35,943 nucleotides of DNA, taken from contig JAFAMV010000024.1 of NCBI GenBank assembly GCA_019233055.1, positions 1-35,943 on the forward strand, written 5' to 3'. A model generated the notes under the pieces. The model saw only the letters and a list, made by a program, of their open reading frames with translations, was not told the origin of the DNA and did not search any database. This document shows, piece by piece, positions 18,769-29,022 of the stretch; position 1 is the stretch's first letter, and each line of letters starts with the position of its first letter. Position numbers and translations under genes: made by a program. This DNA is from Curvibacter sp. GTDB lineage: Bacteria; Pseudomonadota; Gammaproteobacteria; Burkholderiales; Burkholderiaceae_C.

Positions 18769-19998
18769 TCAGTTCCTGACGGACATCGCTTCGATCATCC
18801 GCACGGTCAGGTACAGCCGGGGCACGATGCTGTCGAGATCGGCCCATTCGTCGGAGCTGTGGATGCGGTCACCCACGATGCCCATGCCATCCAGCACCAC
18901 CGGCTTGGCGGGTGAAGCCGGGTTGTAGGCAAAGCCGGCATCCGTCCCATAGCGCATCGCGGCGGCGGTGAGTGGCCGTCCCATTTCTGCATAGATTGAT
19001 TTGGCCAAGGCCGCCAACGAGTCGCTCGATTCATTCCTGCCGAACGGCGGGCGCCGATCTTCCACCCGAACCGAAACCTGGGTCTCAGGGATGAGCTTCT
19101 TCTGAATCAGGCGGTCCGCATCGGCCTGCACCCGCGCAATCTCCGACGGGTCCGACATCCGCATGTCAGCAGTGGCACCTGCCTTTTCAGGGATGATGTT
19201 GACCGCGCCACCCGCCTGGACGACGGTCCAGTTGACTGTCGTCCCCTTGGCCGTGCTGCCGAGGTCGTTCAGCTGCAGCAATTGGTGCGCCAATTCGATC
19301 GCCGCATTGCGACCGGCTTCCGGTGCGGATCCGGCATGAGAGGCCCGCCCCTGCACATCCAGATGGACATAGGCGATGCCATTGGTTCCGACCGTCACCC
19401 GCTCAGACTCGGGTGGCTCGAACACCAGCACGAAATCCTGGTCGGCCGACAGCTTCTGGATGATCGAGCGCGAACCGAGCGAGCTTTTCTCTTCGTCAGG
19501 ATTGAACAGCACCGTGAGGGTCTTGAAAGCCCTGAATTGACGCTCCCGCAGAAGATCGAGGGCGTGCAGGATCAGCAAGGCGCCCCCCTTGGCATCCGCC
19601 ACGCCCGGGCCGAAGGCCTTGTTGCCCACGACCTTGAAGGGCCGCTTTGCCGCGTCTCCGATGCCAAAGACGGTGTCATAGTGGATCATCAGCAGGATGT
19701 TTTTCGTGCCCTCGCCGTGCAAGGTGCCGATGATGGTCCGGCCGGCTGCCGGTGGAGAGGACCGGACCTCGACATCCGCCCCCAGAACCCGCAGCCTCTG
19801 GGCCAGCATGCCTTCGACCTTGGCAAGCCCCGCCGCGTCATCGGTGCCGCTGTCCATGTTGACCACCACACCGAGGTCCTCGGTCAAGGCCGCCTTGTGG
19901 GCCTGGGCCAAGCGCAGAAGGCCCGCGTCATATTGCGCCTGTGCGGCGCCCGCCAGAGCCAAGCCACCAGCCAGGGTCCAGATTTTCATGTGCCTCAT
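18769..19998 (-). CDS. Secreted M20 family metallopeptidase (glutamate carboxypeptidase-like)
   Basis: This 409-residue zinc exopeptidase resembles carboxypeptidase G2. It has a signal peptide (IWTLAGGLALAGAAQAQ), so it is probably periplasmic. The dinuclear zinc site is visible: His106 and Asp108 in IHYDTVF, Asp135 in GPGVADAKGG, catalytic Glu169 and Glu170 in NPDEEKSSLGSR, Glu194 in FEPPESE, and a late His in DRIHSSDEW. The dimerisation domain begins at GRASHAGSAPEAGRNAA. Such enzymes remove C-terminal glutamate from folates or peptides. The start ATG at 19998 has GGAG 7 nt upstream; the frame upstream of it is Arg/Ser-rich and unlikely. It appears to be a single-gene unit. Base usage is less GC-extreme than in the liv region. 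Confidence 0.9.
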   Translation of the reverse strand: MRHMKIWTLAGGLALAGAAQAQYDAGLLRLAQAHKAALTEDLGVVVNMDSGTDDAAGLAKVEGMLAQRLRVLGADVEVRSSPPAAGRTIIGTLHGEGTKNILLMIHYDTVFGIGDAAKRPFKVVGNKAFGPGVADAKGGALLILHALDLLRERQFRAFKTLTVLFNPDEEKSSLGSRSIIQKLSADQDFVLVFEPPESERVTVGTNGIAYVHLDVQGRASHAGSAPEAGRNAAIELAHQLLQLNDLGSTAKGTTVNWTVVQAGGAVNIIPEKAGATADMRMSDPSEIARVQADADRLIQKKLIPETQVSVRVEDRRPPFGRNESSDSLAALAKSIYAEMGRPLTAAAMRYGTDAGFAYNPASPAKPVVLDGMGIVGDRIHSSDEWADLDSIVPRLYLTVRMIEAMSVRN

Positions 19999-20183
19999 AT
20001 TCCATCTCCGCCGTTTCCTGAGTTCAGCCATTGCCGACAAAAACATTCCACATCCGCCACAAAAAAGCCTATCGACAGGGTCCGCTGACGCGGCCGAAAG
20101 CCGCCGTCCAACCTGGTCGAACATGGAGTATTTCTGCAGTCGACAGGCTGATGTTCGATTGAAGTCCTGAAATCGTCAATCGA

Positions 20184-20467
20184 TCAAAGCGCATGAAAAA
20201 ATTCCATTTGGGAATGTCTCGATATGACCGGATTGATTTCCCGAACCCTTGGAATCAAGCACTTACAAAAACGATTCATTGGGCCACCACCGGTTTCGTT
20301 GACATCCATCTGAGCTTCTCGTGCTTGCTCGAACTGAATCGGACGGGTGTAGCCCAGCGTCGAAGACGCCGCCTGGGGATATGGAAGCGTTCGATGTGGT
20401 CGAAAACATTCGACCGAGCTTGCGCACGATGGCGGTAGATTTTTCTGACCACGTGCTCAGTTGCCAT
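20184..20467 (-). pseudogene. Remnant of IS3-type transposase OrfB C-terminus, frameshifted
   Basis: On the minus strand one frame reads EHVVRKIYRHRAQARSNVF, then DHIERFHIPRR. The conserved continuation STLGYTRPIQFEQAREAQ is in a different frame. Together they match the end of the IS3-family integrase domain (pattern VFDYIERFYNPRRRHSTLGYLSPxxFE). A single missing base near 20364-20366, in the expected His codon, accounts for the shift. The upstream catalytic DDE part is absent and no intact terminal inverted repeats were found by eye, so this is a dead fragment. The stretch between it and the M20 gene (19999-20183) holds nothing else I can recognise. Confidence 0.7.
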
Positions 20468-20531
20468 TGAGCCAGCGGAATCCCTCCGTATCGACCCCTC
20501 TCCAAGCCCCGATCAGTATCAAGCTGACCAC

Positions 20532-21527
20532 TCAATCGTCAGCGGTGAACCCGATGGACTTGACGATACCGCGCCAGCGTTCGAAATCCGACCTGAGAAC
20601 TGTCGCCAATTCCTCGGACGTGGACGTCCGAACTTCCAGCCCCACGGCGGCCAAAGCGTCGATGACCTCCTTGTTTGCGAGGGCCTGGCGAACCGCCGCA
20701 TTGGCCGCCTTGACCACCGCAGGGTTTGCGTGGCCGGGCAGGAATATCCCATGCCATTCGCCGTAGACCAGCGTCCGGTAGCCCTGATCCAGCAGGGTTG
20801 CCACGTGGGGCAGGAATTTGCTGCGGGTGGCGCCACTGCTTGCAAGCACACGCAGTTTTCCACCGGGCAAGTGTTGCAGGAATTCACCCACCGGGGCGGA
20901 CACTGCGGCGATCTGCCCGCCGACGAGATCCATGATCGCAGGCTGACTGCCACGGTACCCGATGTGCCGCAGGTCTACCCCGCCGGCCCTGCCAAGAAGC
21001 ACGCCGACGAAATGGGGCATCGAGCCCGGGGCGGGCGAGCCGAAGTTCGCCTGAGCGGGATTGCTCTTGCACCAAGCCATGAATTGCGGAATGTCGCTCA
21101 CCGTTGATGGCACCAGGGGCCCCACCACAAACGCCATGTCGACGGACACGGCTGTTGATACCGGCGTCAGATCCGAAAACGGGTCGTAAGGCAGTTTCCG
21201 ATAGGTGTGGGGATAGATGCCCAACATAGACATCGGGGTGACCAGAAGCGTGCTGCCATCGGCCGGCGCCGCTTTCAAGGTGGAGATGGCAATCTGACCG
21301 CCTCCGCCAGGGCGATTGTCAACAAAGACCGATTTTGCATAGGAGCCGGCCATTCGTGTGGCCAGATGGCGGGCCTCGGTATCCACCGTGCCACCCGGGG
21401 CAAAACCCGCCAGCAGCCTGGTGCTATCGAGCGCCTCCGCGTGGGCGGACCAGGCAACCGTCGAGCCCCATCCGAGCAGAAGGCGGGCCAGGCAGTTGCG
21501 GCGGGTGGTCGGTGTGGAGAATGTCAT
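20532..21527 (-). CDS. Bug/TctC-family periplasmic binding protein
   Basis: This 331-residue protein belongs to the tripartite tricarboxylate transporter binding-protein family (Bug). It shows the beta-strand/loop motif LLAGFAPGGTVDTEARHLA, then VFVDNRPGGGGQIA, and later GSPAPGSMPHFVG and the IGYRGSQPAIMDLVGGQI element. A signal sequence (RNCLARLLLGWGSTVAWSAHA) is present. The ATG at 21527 has GAGG 6 nt upstream. Bug proteins bind small carboxylates. There are no TctA/TctB membrane genes nearby. It is divergent from the LysR gene, which probably controls it. Confidence 0.9.
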   Translation of the reverse strand: MTFSTPTTRRNCLARLLLGWGSTVAWSAHAEALDSTRLLAGFAPGGTVDTEARHLATRMAGSYAKSVFVDNRPGGGGQIAISTLKAAPADGSTLLVTPMSMLGIYPHTYRKLPYDPFSDLTPVSTAVSVDMAFVVGPLVPSTVSDIPQFMAWCKSNPAQANFGSPAPGSMPHFVGVLLGRAGGVDLRHIGYRGSQPAIMDLVGGQIAAVSAPVGEFLQHLPGGKLRVLASSGATRSKFLPHVATLLDQGYRTLVYGEWHGIFLPGHANPAVVKAANAAVRQALANKEVIDALAAVGLEVRTSTSEELATVLRSDFERWRGIVKSIGFTADD

Positions 21528-21910
21528 GGAGCACCTCAAGCTTGTTGGAACAATTCAGGACTTGACTGCCGCTCTTGCTGCGGCAGGGTTCTGCTTCAGG
21601 CGCTCCTGCACGCGCCCACCAAATTCCCATGCCATGCGCCGCACCTCGGACCCATCGTTCTCGGACGCGGTCGCCGGAGGCCATCGCGAGAATTGCTCGG
21701 GCCGCGCCCATGTCTTCTGCCAGTCGTGCAGCAGTCGAGCCGGTGTGGCGCACAGTTTCCAACAGAGGTTCACGGTATCGGACCTGGGGTGAAGGATGAA
21801 ACAGGTCGCGAGTATCGATAGGCCTCATTCACCAGACAATCGACAAAAACTGTTCAATTGATAAGCAACAATTGACAATCACCCATGCGGCCTGTGTTGA
21901 GAATCTCTCC
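21528..21910. other. Intergenic region between the divergent Bug and LysR genes
   Basis: This stretch of about 380 bp is longer than a simple divergent promoter needs. Short frames are open on both strands (for example 21555-21773, minus, 72 codons), but none shows a recognisable family or a good ribosome site. They may be the remains of a lost gene. The LysR-type operator candidate lies at its right end. Confidence 0.4.
21854..21875. promoter_or_regulatory. Candidate LysR operator (perfect palindrome)
   Basis: TCAATTG (21854-21860) and CAATTGA (21869-21875) form a perfect inverted repeat with an 8-bp A-rich spacer, 35 bp before the lysR ATG. It includes the T-N11-A type geometry favoured by LysR regulators. 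Its position fits autoregulation and control of the divergent Bug gene. Confidence 0.6.
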
Positions 21911-22864
21911 ATGCCATTGACGCGATTTACCCTCAGGCAATTCGAAGCTTTTGTCGCTGTGGCGGAGCGCAGCAGCTTCTCAGAAGCCAGCAATCAGATG
22001 GGTTTGACCTCATCGGCGGTAAGCCAATTGGTTGCCGAGTTGGAGGCCTCGTTGGGATTCCGTGTCTTTGATCGGAGCACCCGGCACGTTGAACTGTCTA
22101 GCGCCGGCCGGGATTTCATTGGACCTGCACAAACGGTGCTGAGACACCTGCAGATGGCCGAATCGGCAGCCGCTGATGTGCGCAATCGAGCCTCCGGTGT
22201 GGTGCGTGTCGGCGCCCCCATGGTGCTGGCCAGCGCCGTGCTCCCGGCCGCAATCAAGGCATTCTGCGTCACCCGGCCCAAAGTGATCGTCCGGATCCGG
22301 GACACTCCAGTGGATGAATTGATCGACAAGGTGGCCAGCGGCGATCTGGATCTGGCCGTCGGACCGGACCGGCGCACGGTCCCCCATGTGGACACCATTC
22401 ACGTATTCGACAGTCCCTGGGTCCTCTGGTGCGCCCCCTCCCACCCACTGGCCAGACGGCGCCAACTCCAATGGGAAGATCTGCGCGGAGAGCAGATCGT
22501 TGCCGCCGGCAGGGACCACGAACTGGGCGTGGCGCAAATGCACCTCAACGCGCCCGAAGGAACCCGGGTACGGCCCGTCGACATTGTCGACAATATCTCG
22601 ACTGCCCTGGGCATTTCAGCCCAGGGCTTGGCAATCACGCTGGCTCCGGCCTTCATCGCGGTAGCGGCAGCACCGCTGGGTCTGGTCATGCGGCGGGTCA
22701 GAAACCCCGAGGCGATTCGGCAGGTCTGCATCTATCGCTCCAAGGTACGGGCCGTCCCGCCTGCGGCCGAGGCGTTCTACGACTTCCTGGTGCCGTGGCT
22801 TCAACAATGGAAGGGGCGACGTTCCTTGGGTCGGCCCAGAACTCGAGCCGAAACTGCTCGATGA
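21911..22864 (+). CDS. LysR-family transcriptional regulator
   Basis: This is a 317-residue regulator. An N-terminal winged helix-turn-helix (FTLRQFEAFVAVAERSSFSEA, then SNQMGLTSSAVSQLVAELEASLG, FDRSTRHVELSSAG) is followed by a LysR substrate-binding domain (VVRVGAPMVLASAVLPAAI, DLDLAVGPDR). The ATG at 21911 starts the domain properly; a TTG 39 bp upstream is possible but would lie in the operator region. It is divergent from the Bug gene at 20532-21527, the standard arrangement for a LysR activator and its target. The C-terminal Arg-rich tail is not conserved in the family. Confidence 0.92.
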   Translation: MPLTRFTLRQFEAFVAVAERSSFSEASNQMGLTSSAVSQLVAELEASLGFRVFDRSTRHVELSSAGRDFIGPAQTVLRHLQMAESAAADVRNRASGVVRVGAPMVLASAVLPAAIKAFCVTRPKVIVRIRDTPVDELIDKVASGDLDLAVGPDRRTVPHVDTIHVFDSPWVLWCAPSHPLARRRQLQWEDLRGEQIVAAGRDHELGVAQMHLNAPEGTRVRPVDIVDNISTALGISAQGLAITLAPAFIAVAAAPLGLVMRRVRNPEAIRQVCIYRSKVRAVPPAAEAFYDFLVPWLQQWKGRRSLGRPRTRAETAR

Positions 22865-23074: not shown

Positions 23075-23980
23075 CTAGGCCGACCGACTCACCGCCAGGA
23101 CAGCCGACAGGATCGACCCTGTCGCCGATTCGGTCATGACCAACTCTCGGCTGCCTGGCCTGATGGCCACATTGGTCACTGTGGCCCCTTCTGTACTGCG
23201 CAAAAACTCGGTCACCTCGCCCCGTGCATTGAGGACAAAGACACCGCCCAAACTGGCATGGGCCACAAGCAGCCGGTCGCGGTCCAGCAAGGCCATGCCG
23301 TCGGGGCCACTGGTCCCAAAAAAGGTCTGGAAGGCCCCCATTTTCGAGATGCCGCCGCTGGGCAACAACGGCGCTCTCCAGACCTGATTGCCCCGCGTGA
23401 CCGCCACGAACAGCACGCTGGCATCCTCGTTCACCGCCAAGCCATTCGGACTCGGCGCATTGGCCAGCAGCAGGTCCAGTTGGCCATTCACTCTAAGGCG
23501 GTAAACCCGGCCGGTCGGATCGTGCAGGCCTGTCTGCCCTTGATCGGTGAAATACAGATTTCCATCTCGATCAAACACCAAGTCATTCACGCCCTTAAAG
23601 GATTCGCTATGGCGATGGCCGAGCACGGTGCTCAGTTGGGCGGTGCGCGGGTCCAGGCGGAGAATGCCTTTTCTGTAGTCGGCAATCCACAAGCTGCCAT
23701 CCGGATGAAGCGCCATTCCATTCGGCCAGCCGTCGTACTCCAGCACCAGATGCCACGATAGATCTGGCTCAATCCGGAAGATACGACCGTAGGGAATATC
23801 GGTGACGTAGAGGTTGCCGCAGCCATCAAACACCGGACCTTCAAGAAAGCTGTCCATGACATGGCCAGGTTTGTTGGCATCCACCCAATCGGTGCGCCTC
23901 GCTTGCCTGAATGACTCAGGCAGGCGGGTGAGCACCGTGGCGGGAAGGATGGTCGGCGGAGTGAAATTCAGATTCCACAT
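23075..23980 (-). CDS. SMP-30/gluconolactonase family protein
   Basis: This is a 301-residue six-bladed beta-propeller of the SMP-30/LRE family: calcium- or zinc-dependent lactonases and related hydrolases. Repeated blade motifs are visible (EGPVFDGCGNLYVTDIPYG, PNGMALHPDGSLWIADY, NDLVFDRDGNLYFTD, SPNGLAVNEDASVLFVAV, GPDGMALLDRDRLLVAH). The likely metal ligands are Glu of LEGPVF, Asn of FKGVNDL, Asn of SPNGL and Asp of GPDGMA. No signal peptide is visible, so it is cytoplasmic. It begins 7 bp after the upstream Bug gene and is the last gene of the leftward five-gene operon. A lactone-opening step in the pathway is a reasonable inference. Confidence 0.88.
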   Translation of the reverse strand: MWNLNFTPPTILPATVLTRLPESFRQARRTDWVDANKPGHVMDSFLEGPVFDGCGNLYVTDIPYGRIFRIEPDLSWHLVLEYDGWPNGMALHPDGSLWIADYRKGILRLDPRTAQLSTVLGHRHSESFKGVNDLVFDRDGNLYFTDQGQTGLHDPTGRVYRLRVNGQLDLLLANAPSPNGLAVNEDASVLFVAVTRGNQVWRAPLLPSGGISKMGAFQTFFGTSGPDGMALLDRDRLLVAHASLGGVFVLNARGEVTEFLRSTEGATVTNVAIRPGSRELVMTESATGSILSAVLAVSRSA

Positions 23981-23987
23981 CGCGGCA

Positions 23988-24956
23988 TCACTCCGGCTTG
24001 ACGCCAGCAGCACGGGCTACGGCTGACCAGGCATGGGTTTCTTTTCTGACCAGCGCAGCGAACTCAGCGCTCGGCAGGCCGCCGGGCTGCGCGCCCTGCT
24101 GCGCAAAGCGTTCCACCAGCCCCGGATCCATCATGGCTTTGACGACCTCCTGCTGGAGTTTCTGCACGACGGCGACCGGGGTCCCTTTGGGGGCCGCGAG
24201 GCCGAACCAATTCATCACCACAAAGCCTGGAAGTCCCGCCTCCTTGAAGGTCGGCACCGCCGGCAGGCCGCTCAGTCGCTTGTCCCCGGTCGTTGCCAAG
24301 GCCCGGACCTTGCCGCCATTCACCACCGGGATCGCCGTGGGGCTGGCCGTGATCAACACATCGACCTGGTTCCCCATGAGCGCCAACATGGCATCGCCAG
24401 CGCCTTTGAAGGGAATATGGGTCATGGCGACATGGGCTTCCTTTTCAAACACCTCGCCAGACAAGTGGGTGGAACTGCCGGCCCCCCCGGAGCCGAAGTT
24501 GAGCTGCCCCGGATGCGATTGCGCAAAAGCGATCAGGTCGGCGACCGTCTTGAATGGAGACTGGGCCGGCACCACCAGGACGACCGGTGTGACGGCCAAT
24601 GTCGTCACGGGGATCAGATCGGAGGCCTGGTCCCAGGGCAACTTTTTGAAGATCGCCGGCAGCATCGCGTACGTGGTGTCGTTGGTCAGCAAGGTATTGC
24701 CATCGGGTGCCGATTTCGCCACAAAGTTGCTGCCGATGGTGCCGGACGCGCCAGTCTTGTTCTCCACGATGAAGGATTGGCCCGTTTGCTCGGTCAGCTT
24801 CCGCGCCACCTGGCGCGCCGCAAAATCGGTGGTGCCTCCCGCAGCGTAGGGCACCACAATGCGCACGGGTTTGTCAGGCCATGTGGTTTGAGCCAGCAGC
24901 GGCGTGCACAAAATCGTGCCCAGGGTGAAGGGCAGGACAGAGAAGATGGATTTCAT
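23988..24956 (-). CDS. Bug/TctC-family periplasmic binding protein
   Basis: This 322-residue binding protein has a signal peptide (MKSIFSVLPFTLGTILCTPL, then LAQ). Family motifs are WPDKPVRIVVPYAAGGTTDF near the mature start, VENKTGASGTIG, and the HIPFKGAGDAMLALMGNQVD element with the later GGKVRALATTGDKRL. It probably binds a small carboxylate in the periplasm. It lies fourth in the leftward operon, between another Bug gene (29 bp upstream) and the SMP-30 gene (7 bp downstream). The Shine-Dalgarno sequence is weak. Confidence 0.92.
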   Translation of the reverse strand: MKSIFSVLPFTLGTILCTPLLAQTTWPDKPVRIVVPYAAGGTTDFAARQVARKLTEQTGQSFIVENKTGASGTIGSNFVAKSAPDGNTLLTNDTTYAMLPAIFKKLPWDQASDLIPVTTLAVTPVVLVVPAQSPFKTVADLIAFAQSHPGQLNFGSGGAGSSTHLSGEVFEKEAHVAMTHIPFKGAGDAMLALMGNQVDVLITASPTAIPVVNGGKVRALATTGDKRLSGLPAVPTFKEAGLPGFVVMNWFGLAAPKGTPVAVVQKLQQEVVKAMMDPGLVERFAQQGAQPGGLPSAEFAALVRKETHAWSAVARAAGVKPE

Positions 24957-24985
24957 GGATTTGTCTCGAATCGCTTGGGCAACGC

Positions 24986-25975
24986 TCAATCGAATTGGAT
25001 GGCGCTGGCTTTGATCAACTCCTGCCAACGCTTTTGCTCTGTCTGAAGGAAGCGCGCCGCAGCCTCCAACGAGCCGCCCATAGGAAGGCTTCCTTCTGCT
25101 GCGAGGCGCTCGCGGGTGATGTTTTGCGAAAGGGCGCGCTCAGCAGCTGAGTTCAGCATCTGCAGAACATTCTTCGGGGTTTTGGCAGGGGCCACCAAGA
25201 CCTTCCAATCGGTGGCCTGGAAGTCTGCAAAGCCCGATTCGGCCACGGTCGGCACATTGGGCAGGATGGGCAGGCGCTTGAGCGAGGTCACAGCCAACGC
25301 CCGCAAACGCCCGGCCTTGAGCATGCCGATGACGGCCTGCGGCGTGGCGAACATGTAGTCGGTCTGTCCGCCCAGCAGATCCGTGATGGCAGGTGCGGCC
25401 CCCTTGTAAGGAATGTCCAGCACATTGCTCATTCCCGCCTTGCGCGCCAGCATCACACCGGCCAGGTGCCCCACGGTTCCCGTACCGGCAAGTCCTTGCT
25501 TGAGGGGCGTATTGGAGGCGCGACCTGACTTGATCAGGTCAGCGAGCGTGGCCCAAGGGGCGTCCTGCCGTATGACGAGGATGGTCGGCACTTCAGCCAG
25601 TGCGGCCACCGCGACAAAATCCTCTTTCTCGTTGAACGGCACGTGCTCCGTCGCAACGGGATTGATGGCCAGGTTCGAGGTCTGCCCCAGACCCAGGGTA
25701 TATCCGTCGGCGCTCGCCTTGGCCACGATATCCAGACCGATGTTGCCCGCGCCTCCCGGCTTGTTTTCAACCACGATGGACCATTTCGTCTCCTGGGCGA
25801 TACGCTCGGCGAGCAGGCGTGCGACGGCATCCGTGCCCCCACCCGCCGTGTACGGAACGACCAGGCGAATCGGATGCGACGGCCACGCAGGCTGCGCGCG
25901 GCCGGCCCCGGTGACTGCCAGCAGTCCGATGGCGATGGATTTCTTGAACAGGTCACGGCGTTGATGGTCAGACAT
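24986..25975 (-). CDS. Bug/TctC-family periplasmic binding protein
   Basis: This 329-residue binding protein has a twin-arginine-like signal (QRRDLFKKSIAIGLLAVTGA, then GRAQP). Motifs are WPSHPIRLVVPYTAGGGTDA, VENKPGGAGNIG, and IPYKGAAPAITDLLGGQTDY with GRLRALAVTSLKRL. The ATG at 25975 has a strong GAGGAG 7 nt upstream and overlaps the CoA-transferase stop by 8 bp. It is clearly diverged from the downstream Bug paralogue, so the two may bind different ligands or work at different affinities. No membrane permease is encoded in the window. Confidence 0.92.
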   Translation of the reverse strand: MSDHQRRDLFKKSIAIGLLAVTGAGRAQPAWPSHPIRLVVPYTAGGGTDAVARLLAERIAQETKWSIVVENKPGGAGNIGLDIVAKASADGYTLGLGQTSNLAINPVATEHVPFNEKEDFVAVAALAEVPTILVIRQDAPWATLADLIKSGRASNTPLKQGLAGTGTVGHLAGVMLARKAGMSNVLDIPYKGAAPAITDLLGGQTDYMFATPQAVIGMLKAGRLRALAVTSLKRLPILPNVPTVAESGFADFQATDWKVLVAPAKTPKNVLQMLNSAAERALSQNITRERLAAEGSLPMGGSLEAAARFLQTEQKRWQELIKASAIQFD

Positions 25976-27194
25976 TGCTTTCTCCTCGGACGATGCCTCG
26001 TCCACACATGGCTTCAATTTGTGGCTTGGAATACCCCAGGTCTTGCATCAGCGCCACGCTGTGTTCTCCGAGTCGGGGAGGGTTCATTCGCACACCGGGG
26101 CGGCCTTCCCCCAGCGTGAAGGGCAGCAGGACAGTCTTGCAGGGGCGGCCGTCCGGCAGGGTGATCGGTGCGAGGGTGCCTGTGGCGTTCAGATGGGGAT
26201 CGTCCAGAAGGTCTTGTGGCTTCGTGATGGGCGCAAACGGAAGTCCCCGCTCCTCAAAGAGGCCGGCGACCTCTTGTGCCGAGTAGCGCTCTAGGTGCTT
26301 GCGCAACAAGGGCATGAGCCAGGCGCGAGCCCTGACGCGATCGTTGTTGCTGCCCAGGCAGGCGTCGGTCTTCAGCTCGGTCAGATCAAATGCGTCGCAG
26401 AACGCAGCCCATGCGGTGTCGCTGACGACCGCCAGAAAGATCTGCGCCCCGTCTTTGACCTTGAAGACGTCATAGATGGCCCAGGCTGAAATGCGGTTGG
26501 GCATAGGGGCTGCCGGCTTGCCCGTGACCGCAAACTGCATCATGTGCTGGGCGACCAGGAAGACATTGTTCTCGAACAGCGCAGACTGAACTGCCTGTCC
26601 CAGCCCTGTCTTCTCGCGTTGGGCGAGCGCGGCCATGGCCCCGATGGCCCCGAACATGCCCCCCATGATGTCGTTCACGCTGGCGCCGGCCCGCAGCGGA
26701 TCACCCTCGCGGCCGGTCATGTAGGCCAGCCCCCCCATCATCTGCACCACCTCGTCCAGCGCCGTGCGGTCTTCGTAGGGGCCAGGCAGAAAGCCTTTGT
26801 GGCTGACATGGATGAGACGGGGATTGAGCTTGGACAGCGCGTCATAGCCCAGGCCCAGCTTGTCCATCGTGCCGGGGCGGAAGTTCTCGCTCACGATGTC
26901 TGCACTGAGGATCAGCTTCAGCGCCACTTCCATGCCTTCGGCTGATTTGAGGTCCAGCGCGATGCTTTTCTTGTTCCGGTTGAACATCGGAAAGAAGCCC
27001 GCGCCGGAACCCAGCAGGTTGCGGGTGCTGTCGCCAGCCATGGGTTCGACCTTGATGACCTCAGCCCCCAGGTCGGCGAGCACCATGCCGCAGGTGGGCC
27101 CCATGACCATGTGGGTGAACTCCACCACGCGAACCCCGGCGTAGGGCAGTGTCCGGCCTGCCGCTTGAGACGGTTGATCCACGGGCGCGTTCAT
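25968..27194 (-). CDS. CaiB/BaiF (class III) CoA-transferase
   Basis: This 408-residue enzyme transfers CoA between carboxylates. Family sequence includes LPYAGVRVVEFTHMVMGPTC, LADLGAEVIKVEP, NRNKKSIALDLKS, ENFRPGTMDKLGLGYD, and the catalytic Asp175 in GASVNDIMGG. The ATG at 27194 overlaps the lyase stop by 4 bp (ATGA); the longer open frame upstream is the lyase gene in another frame. The C-terminus is complete. With an HMG-CoA-lyase-like partner it most likely activates a hydroxy-dicarboxylate to its CoA thioester, but succinyl-CoA versus acetyl-CoA as donor cannot be seen from sequence. Confidence 0.93.
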   Translation of the reverse strand: MNAPVDQPSQAAGRTLPYAGVRVVEFTHMVMGPTCGMVLADLGAEVIKVEPMAGDSTRNLLGSGAGFFPMFNRNKKSIALDLKSAEGMEVALKLILSADIVSENFRPGTMDKLGLGYDALSKLNPRLIHVSHKGFLPGPYEDRTALDEVVQMMGGLAYMTGREGDPLRAGASVNDIMGGMFGAIGAMAALAQREKTGLGQAVQSALFENNVFLVAQHMMQFAVTGKPAAPMPNRISAWAIYDVFKVKDGAQIFLAVVSDTAWAAFCDAFDLTELKTDACLGSNNDRVRARAWLMPLLRKHLERYSAQEVAGLFEERGLPFAPITKPQDLLDDPHLNATGTLAPITLPDGRPCKTVLLPFTLGEGRPGVRMNPPRLGEHSVALMQDLGYSKPQIEAMCGRGIVRGESNV

Positions 27195-28159
27195 GACGGC
27201 AGCCCCGCTTGACGGCTCGATGCCGGCTGCCAGCCCTTGGGAAGGCCGGCCTCCGGTGTCATGCCATACAGGGGCTCGTGGGGCAAGCCCGCACTCAAGG
27301 GGAGGCGTGCGGCCAACAGGCGCGCCAGGTCGATGCCGGTCTCGATGCCCATGGCCTCGAACATGAACACCAGGTCTTCCGTCACCACATTGCCGCTGGC
27401 ACCCGGTGCGTAGGGGCATCCCCCCAGCCCCCCCAGCGAGGCGTCGAAGGTCCGGACGCCGGCTTCGTAGGCGGCCAGGCAGTTCGCCAGACCCAGCCCT
27501 CGGGTGTTGTGCATGTGTGCCGCACCCGCCTGTGACCCCAGGGACCTTCGCAGGCGTGTGAACAGGCGCTTGACCTGGGCCGGGTTGGCCATTCCGGTGG
27601 TGTCGGACAGGCCCGACTCGTCTGCACCGGCCTTCACGCACGCTTCGGCGAGCCAGATCACATCGTCTTCAGCGACCGCCCCTTGCAGCGTGCAGCCGAA
27701 CGCGGTGGAGATGCCTGCCTCCAGCTTGACCGTCGGGGCGATCTCATCACGCAAGCGGGCAATCGCCCGAACCTCTTCGATCATCTGTTCGCGTGTCTTG
27801 CGCACATTGGCCAGGGAATGGGCCTCGCTGGCCGAGACCGGCATCGTCAGCTTGTGCACGCCTGCATGCAAGGCTGCCTCGGCACCTTTGAGGTTGGGCA
27901 CCAGGGCCATGACGCAAACCCCTGGATGGGTCAGGGCATGCCGCGCCACCTCGGCCGCATCGGCCATCTGGGGCAACAGGCGGGCCGGTACGAACGATGC
28001 CACCTCGATTTCCTGCACCCCGGCAGCGACCAGTGCATCGATCCAGGCTCGCTTGTGGTGGGTCGGCATCGTCGCCTTGACCGATTGCAGGCCATCGCGG
28101 GGCCCGACTTCGCTGATCAACACCGCCTCGGTGGACCGCTGTGGATGGGGTTCTTGCAT
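27191..28159 (-). CDS. Hydroxymethylglutaryl-CoA lyase-like enzyme
   Basis: This 322-residue DRE-TIM metallolyase opens with EVGPRDGLQSVKATMPT (catalytic Arg21-Asp22). It carries EIEVASFVPARLLPQMAD and the active-site Cys loop GLGGCPYAPGASGN, the HMG-CoA lyase signature. HMG-CoA lyases split HMG-CoA to acetoacetate and acetyl-CoA; relatives cleave citramalyl-CoA or similar hydroxyacyl-CoA. It is the first gene of the five-gene leftward operon, with the regulator gene divergent. AAGGAG lies 11 nt before the ATG, slightly far. Genuine HMG-CoA lyases in leucine catabolism usually sit with MCC/IVD genes, which are absent here, so a different substrate is plausible. Confidence 0.92.
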   Translation of the reverse strand: MQEPHPQRSTEAVLISEVGPRDGLQSVKATMPTHHKRAWIDALVAAGVQEIEVASFVPARLLPQMADAAEVARHALTHPGVCVMALVPNLKGAEAALHAGVHKLTMPVSASEAHSLANVRKTREQMIEEVRAIARLRDEIAPTVKLEAGISTAFGCTLQGAVAEDDVIWLAEACVKAGADESGLSDTTGMANPAQVKRLFTRLRRSLGSQAGAAHMHNTRGLGLANCLAAYEAGVRTFDASLGGLGGCPYAPGASGNVVTEDLVFMFEAMGIETGIDLARLLAARLPLSAGLPHEPLYGMTPEAGLPKGWQPASSRQAGLPS

Positions 28160-28181
28160 GGTTCAGACATCTCCTTGAAAT

Positions 28182-28196
28182 TCTGTAAGATAGAAC
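28182..28196. promoter_or_regulatory. Candidate IclR operator in the lyase/iclR divergent region
   Basis: The near-palindrome TTCTGT-AAG-ATAGAA (5 of 6 arm positions symmetric) lies in a markedly AT-rich 116-bp divergent region. A further TATAGAA half-site lies about 19 bp away (28209-28215). Its position between the IclR gene and the operon fits repression or autoregulation. Confidence 0.45.
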
Positions 28197-28275
28197 TATA
28201 TTTGAATTTATAGAATTTAAATCAAGGCCACAATCAACGTCAAGGCAGGCATTCGCCTGAAGGAAAGGTCTGTCC

Positions 28276-29022
28276 ATGCCTCGCAAGGCTCAAACGCAAT
28301 CTCTGGCCGATGAATCCAGTGCGCCAGGAGGTGCGGCGGCAGTCGACCGGGCCATCACATTGCTGGCAGCGTTTCGCACGGGCGATGCCGCTCTGTCCTT
28401 GGCGGAGTTGGCCGAACGCACCCGGCTCTACAAGAGCACCGTGCTGAGGTTGCTCGCCTCGCTCGAGCACGGGCGACTGGTCGAGCGTCTGCCCGATGGG
28501 CACTACGCCCTGGGGATGGAAGTGGCGCGCCTTCACGCCATCCATGCCGCCCATTTCTCCCTGGATCGGCTGGTCCTGCCTGTGCTCAAGGCCTTGGTGG
28601 AGGCCACCGGCGAAAGCGCGGCCTACCACGTTCGCCAGGGACGTCCGCCGAATCAGACCCGCCTCTGTCTGTACAGGGTGGACTCGCCCCACCCTATTCG
28701 CGACCACATCCGTGCCGGGGACGTCTTGCCTCTGGCGTCGGGGACCGGCGGGCGAGTGTTGTCGGCGTTCGGCATGGGCGATGAACAGCAGGTCCCCAGC
28801 CAGGACGACCGGATGCTGTATGCGCGCATCAGGGAGCAGGGCTATTTCGCCTCGGTGGGAGACCGGCTGGCCGAGGTTGCAGGCATCTCAGCCCCGGTCA
28901 CCAACACCCAAGGCGCCGTGGTGGCCGCCCTGACCCTGACGATGCCCAGCCATCGCTATGACGCGAGGTACATCAAGGATGTGCTGGCCGCCGCAAGGCA
29001 ATTGAGCCAGTGCATCGGATGA
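28276..29022 (+). CDS. IclR-family transcriptional regulator
   Basis: This 248-residue regulator has an N-terminal winged helix-turn-helix (AAVDRAITLLAAFRTGDAAL, then AELAERTRLYKSTVLRLLAS) followed by an IclR effector-binding domain (LGMEVARLHAIH, SAAYHVRQG, ASGTGGRVLSAF, GISAPVTNTQGAVVAALTL). It is transcribed away from the lyase-CoA-transferase operon, the usual layout for a pathway-specific IclR regulator whose ligand is the pathway substrate or an intermediate. AAGGAAAGG precedes the ATG. It marks the right edge of the accessory-looking segment. Confidence 0.93.
   Translation: MPRKAQTQSLADESSAPGGAAAVDRAITLLAAFRTGDAALSLAELAERTRLYKSTVLRLLASLEHGRLVERLPDGHYALGMEVARLHAIHAAHFSLDRLVLPVLKALVEATGESAAYHVRQGRPPNQTRLCLYRVDSPHPIRDHIRAGDVLPLASGTGGRVLSAFGMGDEQQVPSQDDRMLYARIREQGYFASVGDRLAEVAGISAPVTNTQGAVVAALTLTMPSHRYDARYIKDVLAAARQLSQCIG

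Follow-up and report, generated by a model that had tools for sequence, protein, structure and literature searches.

A stretch of 35,943 nucleotides from Curvibacter sp. (contig JAFAMV010000024.1 of assembly GCA_019233055.1, labelled C47 in our numbering of the 4.97-Mb genome; hereafter the window) carries five closely packed minus-strand genes and a divergent regulator, which we read, with a probability of about 0.5, as a module for the catabolism of an (R)-citramalate-type acid, that is, a 2-hydroxy-2-substituted succinate, the likely products being acetyl-CoA together with pyruvate or another 2-oxo acid of that kind. The order on the minus strand is a lyase of the 3-hydroxy-3-methylglutaryl-CoA (HMG-CoA) lyase family, predicted to be of the citramalyl-CoA type (27191..28159), a CaiB/BaiF class III CoA-transferase (25968..27194), two Bug/TctC periplasmic binding proteins, Bug A (24986..25975) and Bug B (23988..24956), and a protein with the SMP-30/gluconolactonase fold (23075..23980), a predicted lactonase in which no signal peptide is seen by eye; the gene of an IclR-family regulator lies divergently on the plus strand (28276..29022). 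The family matches of the six proteins are HMGL-like (PF00682, 8.5e-46), CoA_transf_3 (PF02515), TctC for both Bug proteins (PF03401), SGL, and IclR (HTH_IclR and IclR_C).

The lyase and CaiB genes overlap by 4 bp and the CaiB and Bug A genes by 8 bp, followed by a gap of 29 bp between Bug A and Bug B and one of 7 bp between Bug B and SMP-30. This packing, together with the divergent IclR gene, had been described in a first-pass annotation made from the sequence of the window, and the open reading frame (ORF) coordinates agree with it. The gene limits given there also hold throughout, with the amendment that the SMP-30 limit of 24013 belongs to the longest ORF, which opens with GTG, and that the ATG at 23980 is the likelier start. 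By arrangement, the five genes resemble an operon and would be transcribed jointly; the unit is conserved in several related bacteria. The grouping is more than chance: in 399 genomes of the order, every SMP-30 copy of at least 67% identity lies within this operon, and a conserved palindrome precedes the lyase gene. The unit had been called uncharacterised, and literature searches turned up no article describing it. Closest is a study of Burkholderia phymatum and Cupriavidus taiwanensis in which Mimosa root exudate raised the expression of an operon with HMGL and CaiB 2- to 9-fold (PMC5789663); the likeness is one of gene pair.

In the mechanism proposed, the two Bug proteins would capture the acid, or else its lactone, in the periplasm, and SMP-30 would open the lactone in the cytoplasm. 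CaiB would then transfer CoA, probably from succinyl-CoA, onto the CH2-carboxylate via Asp175, and the metal-dependent HMGL-fold lyase would perform a retro-Claisen-type cleavage, with IclR likely binding the palindrome and repressing the unit until it binds the acid or a product. We infer both the stereochemistry and every substrate named here.

Position of the lyase and its pairing with CaiB

Placed by its sequence, the window lyase is not a member of the leucine branch of its family. In a quick-search tree of 85 rows, with SH-aLRT as the only measure of support, it falls inside a 46-row clade (support 100, stem 1.44). Human HMGCL belongs to another clade, that of the leucine-type lyases (support 100), and the C170 lyase of this genome and 6nds are among rows that also lie apart from the window clade. 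Two loci with an internal stop in the aligned stretch (L066 and L144) were left out of this tree and kept with X in the FastTree referred to below, and a third (L185) sits on a long terminal branch with uncertain placement. Nesting among leucine-pathway enzymes, the outcome that the first-pass annotation had named as counting against its proposal, was not seen for the lyase.

The genome has six PF00682 matches. Against the NCBIfam HMG-CoA lyase subfamily model, the window lyase scores 286 bits, passing the cut-off of 246, and the lyase on contig C103 reaches 445 bits and is flanked by biotin-carboxylase, carboxyltransferase and enoyl-CoA hydratase genes. Family assignment of the window genes revealed none of the 3-methylcrotonyl-CoA carboxylase type in the operon. 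The absence of leucine-catabolism genes that had been claimed is borne out for the operon but not for the genome, in view of the separate leucine-type lyase at C103. Identity with the leucine-pathway HMG-CoA lyase is ruled out by the tree together with this second enzyme.

The window lyase shares its family and catalytic residues with the leucine-pathway enzymes (human HMGCL, PA2011 and the C103 lyase). The catalytic Arg, Asp, Glu, two His, Cys and Asn, which we take to correspond in number and role to R41, D42, E72, D204, H233, H235, C266 and N275 of human HMGCL, are all present and invariant in the 40 rows of the window group, marking a member of the HMGL-like family; the GPRDG and GGCPYAPGASGN motifs previously reported are likewise in place. 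Unlike those enzymes, it belongs to another clade, has no carboxylase genes beside it and is paired with CaiB. In the same 40 rows, the window group differs from the leucine group at human positions 238, 236, 240, 81, 140 and 165, and human R165, N140, Y238, W81 and Q240 are each swapped for one residue in 82-100% of the rows. The nearest named protein, at 89% identity, comes from Curvibacter sp. RS43, and the public relatives, which occur in Variovorax, Achromobacter, Acidovorax, Comamonas, Delftia, Bordetella and others, carry the name hydroxymethylglutaryl-CoA lyase.

Judging from gene neighbourhoods, the core of the module is the lyase with CaiB, often accompanied by IclR, whereas the Bug and SMP-30 genes are add-ons and the five-gene form is a minority form. 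Among 80 named relatives of the lyase (the best 80 of 547 confirmed stretches from one scan), CaiB adjoins the lyase in 63, lying within 600 bp downstream in 58 and upstream in 5. A divergent IclR gene is present in 44 of the 80, a Bug gene some 0.9-2.6 kb downstream of the lyase in 28, and SMP-30 (>60%) in 7. The locus counts rest on tblastn, the crude gene caller having given antisense frames at some loci, and include a few duplicate rows, as L040 and L123 are the same contig. In addition, lyase and CaiB read through as a single uninterrupted frame at three loci (L039, L056 and L112), an arrangement that needs at least three changes on the FastTree. The neighbourhood search thus upholds the pair within the five-gene functional set that had been claimed, but the full form, given the distribution of SMP-30, belongs to a minority. 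CaiB itself shows both features of a class III CoA-transferase, namely PF02515 and the annotated catalytic Asp175, and human succinate-HMG CoA-transferase is among its relatives with solved structures.

Three further arrangements were noted. One of the single-frame loci, L056, is contig C130 of this same genome (9149-11260), where a lyase (54%) and a CaiB (67%) in one frame are followed by a Bug gene, constituting a paralogous module. A C170-type CaiB-HMGL arrangement, often with a Bug gene, was found among 20 further lyases of 41-49% identity (L180-L199), 16 of which have CaiB adjacent. Lyase orthologs without an adjacent CaiB comprise L093, L095, L097, L098 and 13 other loci, including several from Acidovorax and Rhodoferax.

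Evidence for the proposed (R)-citramalate-type substrate

The (R)-citramalate reading is based on the known R-citramalate enzymes, on the gene set of one relative (L046) and on the stereochemistry of Rv2498c. An (R)-citramalyl-CoA lyase (EC 4.1.3.46, K18314) and a succinyl-CoA:(R)-citramalate CoA-transferase (EC 2.8.3.20, K18313) are known from Chloroflexus aurantiacus. There, as here, an HMGL-family lyase would be paired with a class III transferase, with the same expected reaction, a likeness at the level of family; the present genes differ in belonging to Burkholderiales, in the company of Bug proteins, SMP-30 and IclR, and in being sometimes joined in one frame.

In L046, the lyase and its own CaiB directly follow genes for a CitE/RipC-like lyase, an Ich-like hydratase and an acyl-CoA dehydrogenase, together with two further CaiB genes, the names being best model matches under curated cut-offs and CitE having been scored on its last 139 residues. 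Because this locus holds an S-citramalyl-CoA-like set beside the lyase-CaiB pair, it is plausible that the HMGL-type lyase acts on the R form. The itaconate cluster ict-ich-ccl (PA0878-PA0886) uses a hydratase and an S-form lyase of CitE fold, whereas searches of the window with the CitE, Ich and acyl-CoA dehydrogenase of L046 and with the fumarase of L054 gave no matches (E 1e-3), and neither the hydratase nor the CitE-type lyase of that cluster is seen there. Wild-type Pseudomonas putida KT2440 is reported not to grow on either form of citramalate; equipped with the itaconate cluster of P. aeruginosa, it used the S form for growth and not the R form (PMC9875883).

In the literature, a lyase (EC 4.1.3.46) and a transferase (EC 2.8.3.20) are listed for R-citramalate (PMC8307300), and (S)-citramalyl-CoA and (R)-HMG-CoA are given as the substrates of Rv2498c (PMC6689899). 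By analogy with the latter pairing, the geometry of HMGL-family lyases, built for (S)-HMG-CoA, would suit (R)-citramalyl-CoA. MmgE/PrpD genes, which also occur in itaconate/methylsuccinate clusters according to PMC12290011, lie within 6 kb upstream of the lyase in L037, L096, L138, L051, L052, L066 and L067.

Other neighbours were considered as clues. Class I fumarase genes stand beside the lyase-CaiB pair in L054, L064 and L065 and were kept as weak evidence for a mesaconase. LeuCD isopropylmalate-isomerase neighbours, guessed in L037 from gene lengths, are actually an aldehyde dehydrogenase and a sulfopyruvate-decarboxylase-like pair; both L037 and L138 carry MmgE/PrpD, such a pair and an aldehyde dehydrogenase upstream of lyase-CaiB. 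No clear clue came from the aminopeptidase genes around L062 or from the genes scanned in the vicinity of L092, L093, L100 and L106, lyases that lack CaiB.

Several points weigh against the (R)-citramalate reading. To our knowledge, neither citramalate nor HMG has a realistic lactone and, with SMP-30 so rare among the relatives, the five-gene form needs another substrate or entry point. No CaiB lies beside the lyase in 17 of the 80 named relatives, and Arg238 and Asn236 are found in the C170 group as well, hence they mark no single substrate. The context of L046 comes from one genome only, and the matches of the present genome to its Ich are weak (31% at most). As for the fumarase, it shares 75% identity with the single match in this genome, located elsewhere, so that it may be a plain fumarase, and its route would yield (S)-citramalate, the opposite form; the product of the known mesaconase is given as the S form in PMC4682846. 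Finally, it is an (S)-citramalyl-CoA lyase that is named for the Chloroflexus bi-cycle in PMC8307300.

SMP-30, the Bug proteins and competing substrates

The propeller fold of the SMP-30 protein is supported by a structure match, and the protein shares with the SMP-30/gluconolactonase family (the RPA3624 lactonase, XC5397 and Drp35) both this fold and conserved putative metal residues. Identity in the structure match is 22-26%, and its role as a lactonase is a prediction. The putative metal residues E47, N132, N179 and D227, presumably equivalent to human E18, N103, N154 and D204, are invariant in 20 rows. Among 399 genomes of the order, copies of at least 67% identity occur in four, this one included, and all four lie inside this operon. 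Moreover, a relative of Bug B (55-63%) directly precedes SMP-30 in all 10 other loci with an SMP-30 of at least 66%. On the FastTree of 113 lyases, SMP-30 was gained or lost at least nine times. Regarding the Bug proteins, Bug A has a twin-arginine-like N-terminus (RRDLFKK, by eye), and TctA, the Tct membrane partner, has two matches elsewhere in the genome, for which no link to the operon was shown. A second group of SMP-30 proteins (54-57%; L171-L179) looks like part of another operon, with an RraA-like protein, a 2-hydroxyacid dehydrogenase and Bug genes in eight of nine loci and Amidohydrolase_2 in five of nine.

The first-pass annotation had suggested HMG, citramalate or a lactone as the substrate; citramalate-type chemistry fits best, but neither acid offers a realistic lactone of its own, and the lactonase therefore points to a further hydroxylated substrate. 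The rival that survives best, although we regard it as rather unlikely, is that the five genes act on a lactone-forming hydroxylated or larger homologue of citramalate, either itatartarate (with the lactone 2-hydroxyparaconate), which would give acetyl-CoA and hydroxypyruvate, or homocitrate (by way of its lactone), which would give acetyl-CoA and 2-oxoglutarate. The confinement of close SMP-30 copies to this operon argues for it. A 2-oxo acid other than pyruvate would also be suited by D-2-hydroxyacid dehydrogenase genes near the pair (L037, L041, L096 and L152) and by a sulfopyruvate-decarboxylase-like pair with a lactaldehyde-dehydrogenase-like gene (L037 and L138); the best NCBIfam names of these accessory genes, phosphoglycerate dehydrogenase, glyoxylate reductase and lactaldehyde dehydrogenase among them, fall below the cut-offs, the only model passed being "hypothetical protein". 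However, accessory genes and SMP-30 were never seen together in one locus, and Pseudomonas opens 2-hydroxyparaconate with another protein, the 127-residue PA0880, according to PMC9875883. A narrower version, in which SMP-30 opens 2-hydroxyparaconate, the lactone of the fungal itaconate derivative itatartarate, CaiB forms itatartaryl-CoA and the lyase splits this into acetyl-CoA and hydroxypyruvate, we consider highly doubtful; in Pseudomonas, that same paper proposes 2-hydroxyparaconate and itatartarate as a dead end.

It also seems unlikely that the operon catabolises HMG (3-hydroxy-3-methylglutarate, meglutol), with CaiB forming (S)-HMG-CoA and the lyase releasing acetyl-CoA and acetoacetate. 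The score above the HMG-CoA lyase cut-off, the full set of catalytic residues and the human succinate-HMG CoA-transferase among the structural relatives of CaiB are all consistent with it, but the genome has the better-scoring leucine-type lyase at C103, the window lyase lies in the other clade with changed residues, some relatives have Ich-, CitE- and MmgE-like neighbours, which suggest C5 acids, and HMG would leave SMP-30 without a realistic lactone. Very improbable is a mere neighbourhood without one pathway, in which Bug and SMP-30 genes of other use would adjoin the core pair: this pair does mostly occur without SMP-30, whose gains or losses were repeated, but the genes overlap or are closely spaced, no close SMP-30 copy lies outside the operon in the 399 genomes, and its place after a Bug gene is constant in the 10 other loci.

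If the (R)-citramalate reading is right, the genomes of Variovorax, Achromobacter, Acidovorax and others would hold an unrecognised route for branched hydroxy acids, together with a new IclR operator, and it would be a mistake to name this lyase clade after the leucine pathway. The version with the lactonase would in turn indicate a lactone as carbon source, one that can be named and tested.

Predicted operator and flanking genes

The operon has a predicted promoter (TTGACG-17-TTAAAT, by eye; 28215..28243, minus strand), and IclR appears to have a local operator of its own that covers the -10 box and continues downstream of it. The predicted operator palindrome, TTCTATCTTACAGAA (28181..28195), is the sole exact copy of its pattern in the genome and is conserved in homologous regions; a degenerate upstream operator-like copy (28201..28218, minus strand), with the half-site AAATTCTATAA recognised by eye, overlaps the predicted -10 box. 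In the lyase-IclR intergenic regions of 52 loci with a divergent IclR, with the window included and L040 and L123 standing for one contig, TTCTRTnnnAYAGAA is found in 34 and the relaxed core TTCY-N8-GAA in all 52, as compared with 0 and, on average, 1.5 in a dinucleotide shuffle control. Upstream of 97 lyases from several clades that lack a divergent IclR, the exact pattern is absent and the relaxed core occurs twice (L110 and L112). Two or more operator cores are present in 27 of the 52 regions, TTGAC in 46, and a spaced -35/-10-like pair in 32. Since the predicted operator covers and follows the -10 box, its position suggests that IclR would bind there and act as a repressor.

Six further sites with one mismatch to the operator occur in the genome, versus 1 for a reversed-pattern control, a slight excess on which no wider regulon is claimed. 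One such copy (L218; contig C38:12364-12378) lies about 80 bp upstream of isocitrate lyase and could be due to chance. Past the last operon gene, the window has one more Bug/TctC gene, its third (20532-21539), a LysR gene in divergent orientation (21872-22864) and an M20 glutamate-carboxypeptidase-like gene (18769-20124), which perhaps make up a separate Bug-type unit (18769-22864).

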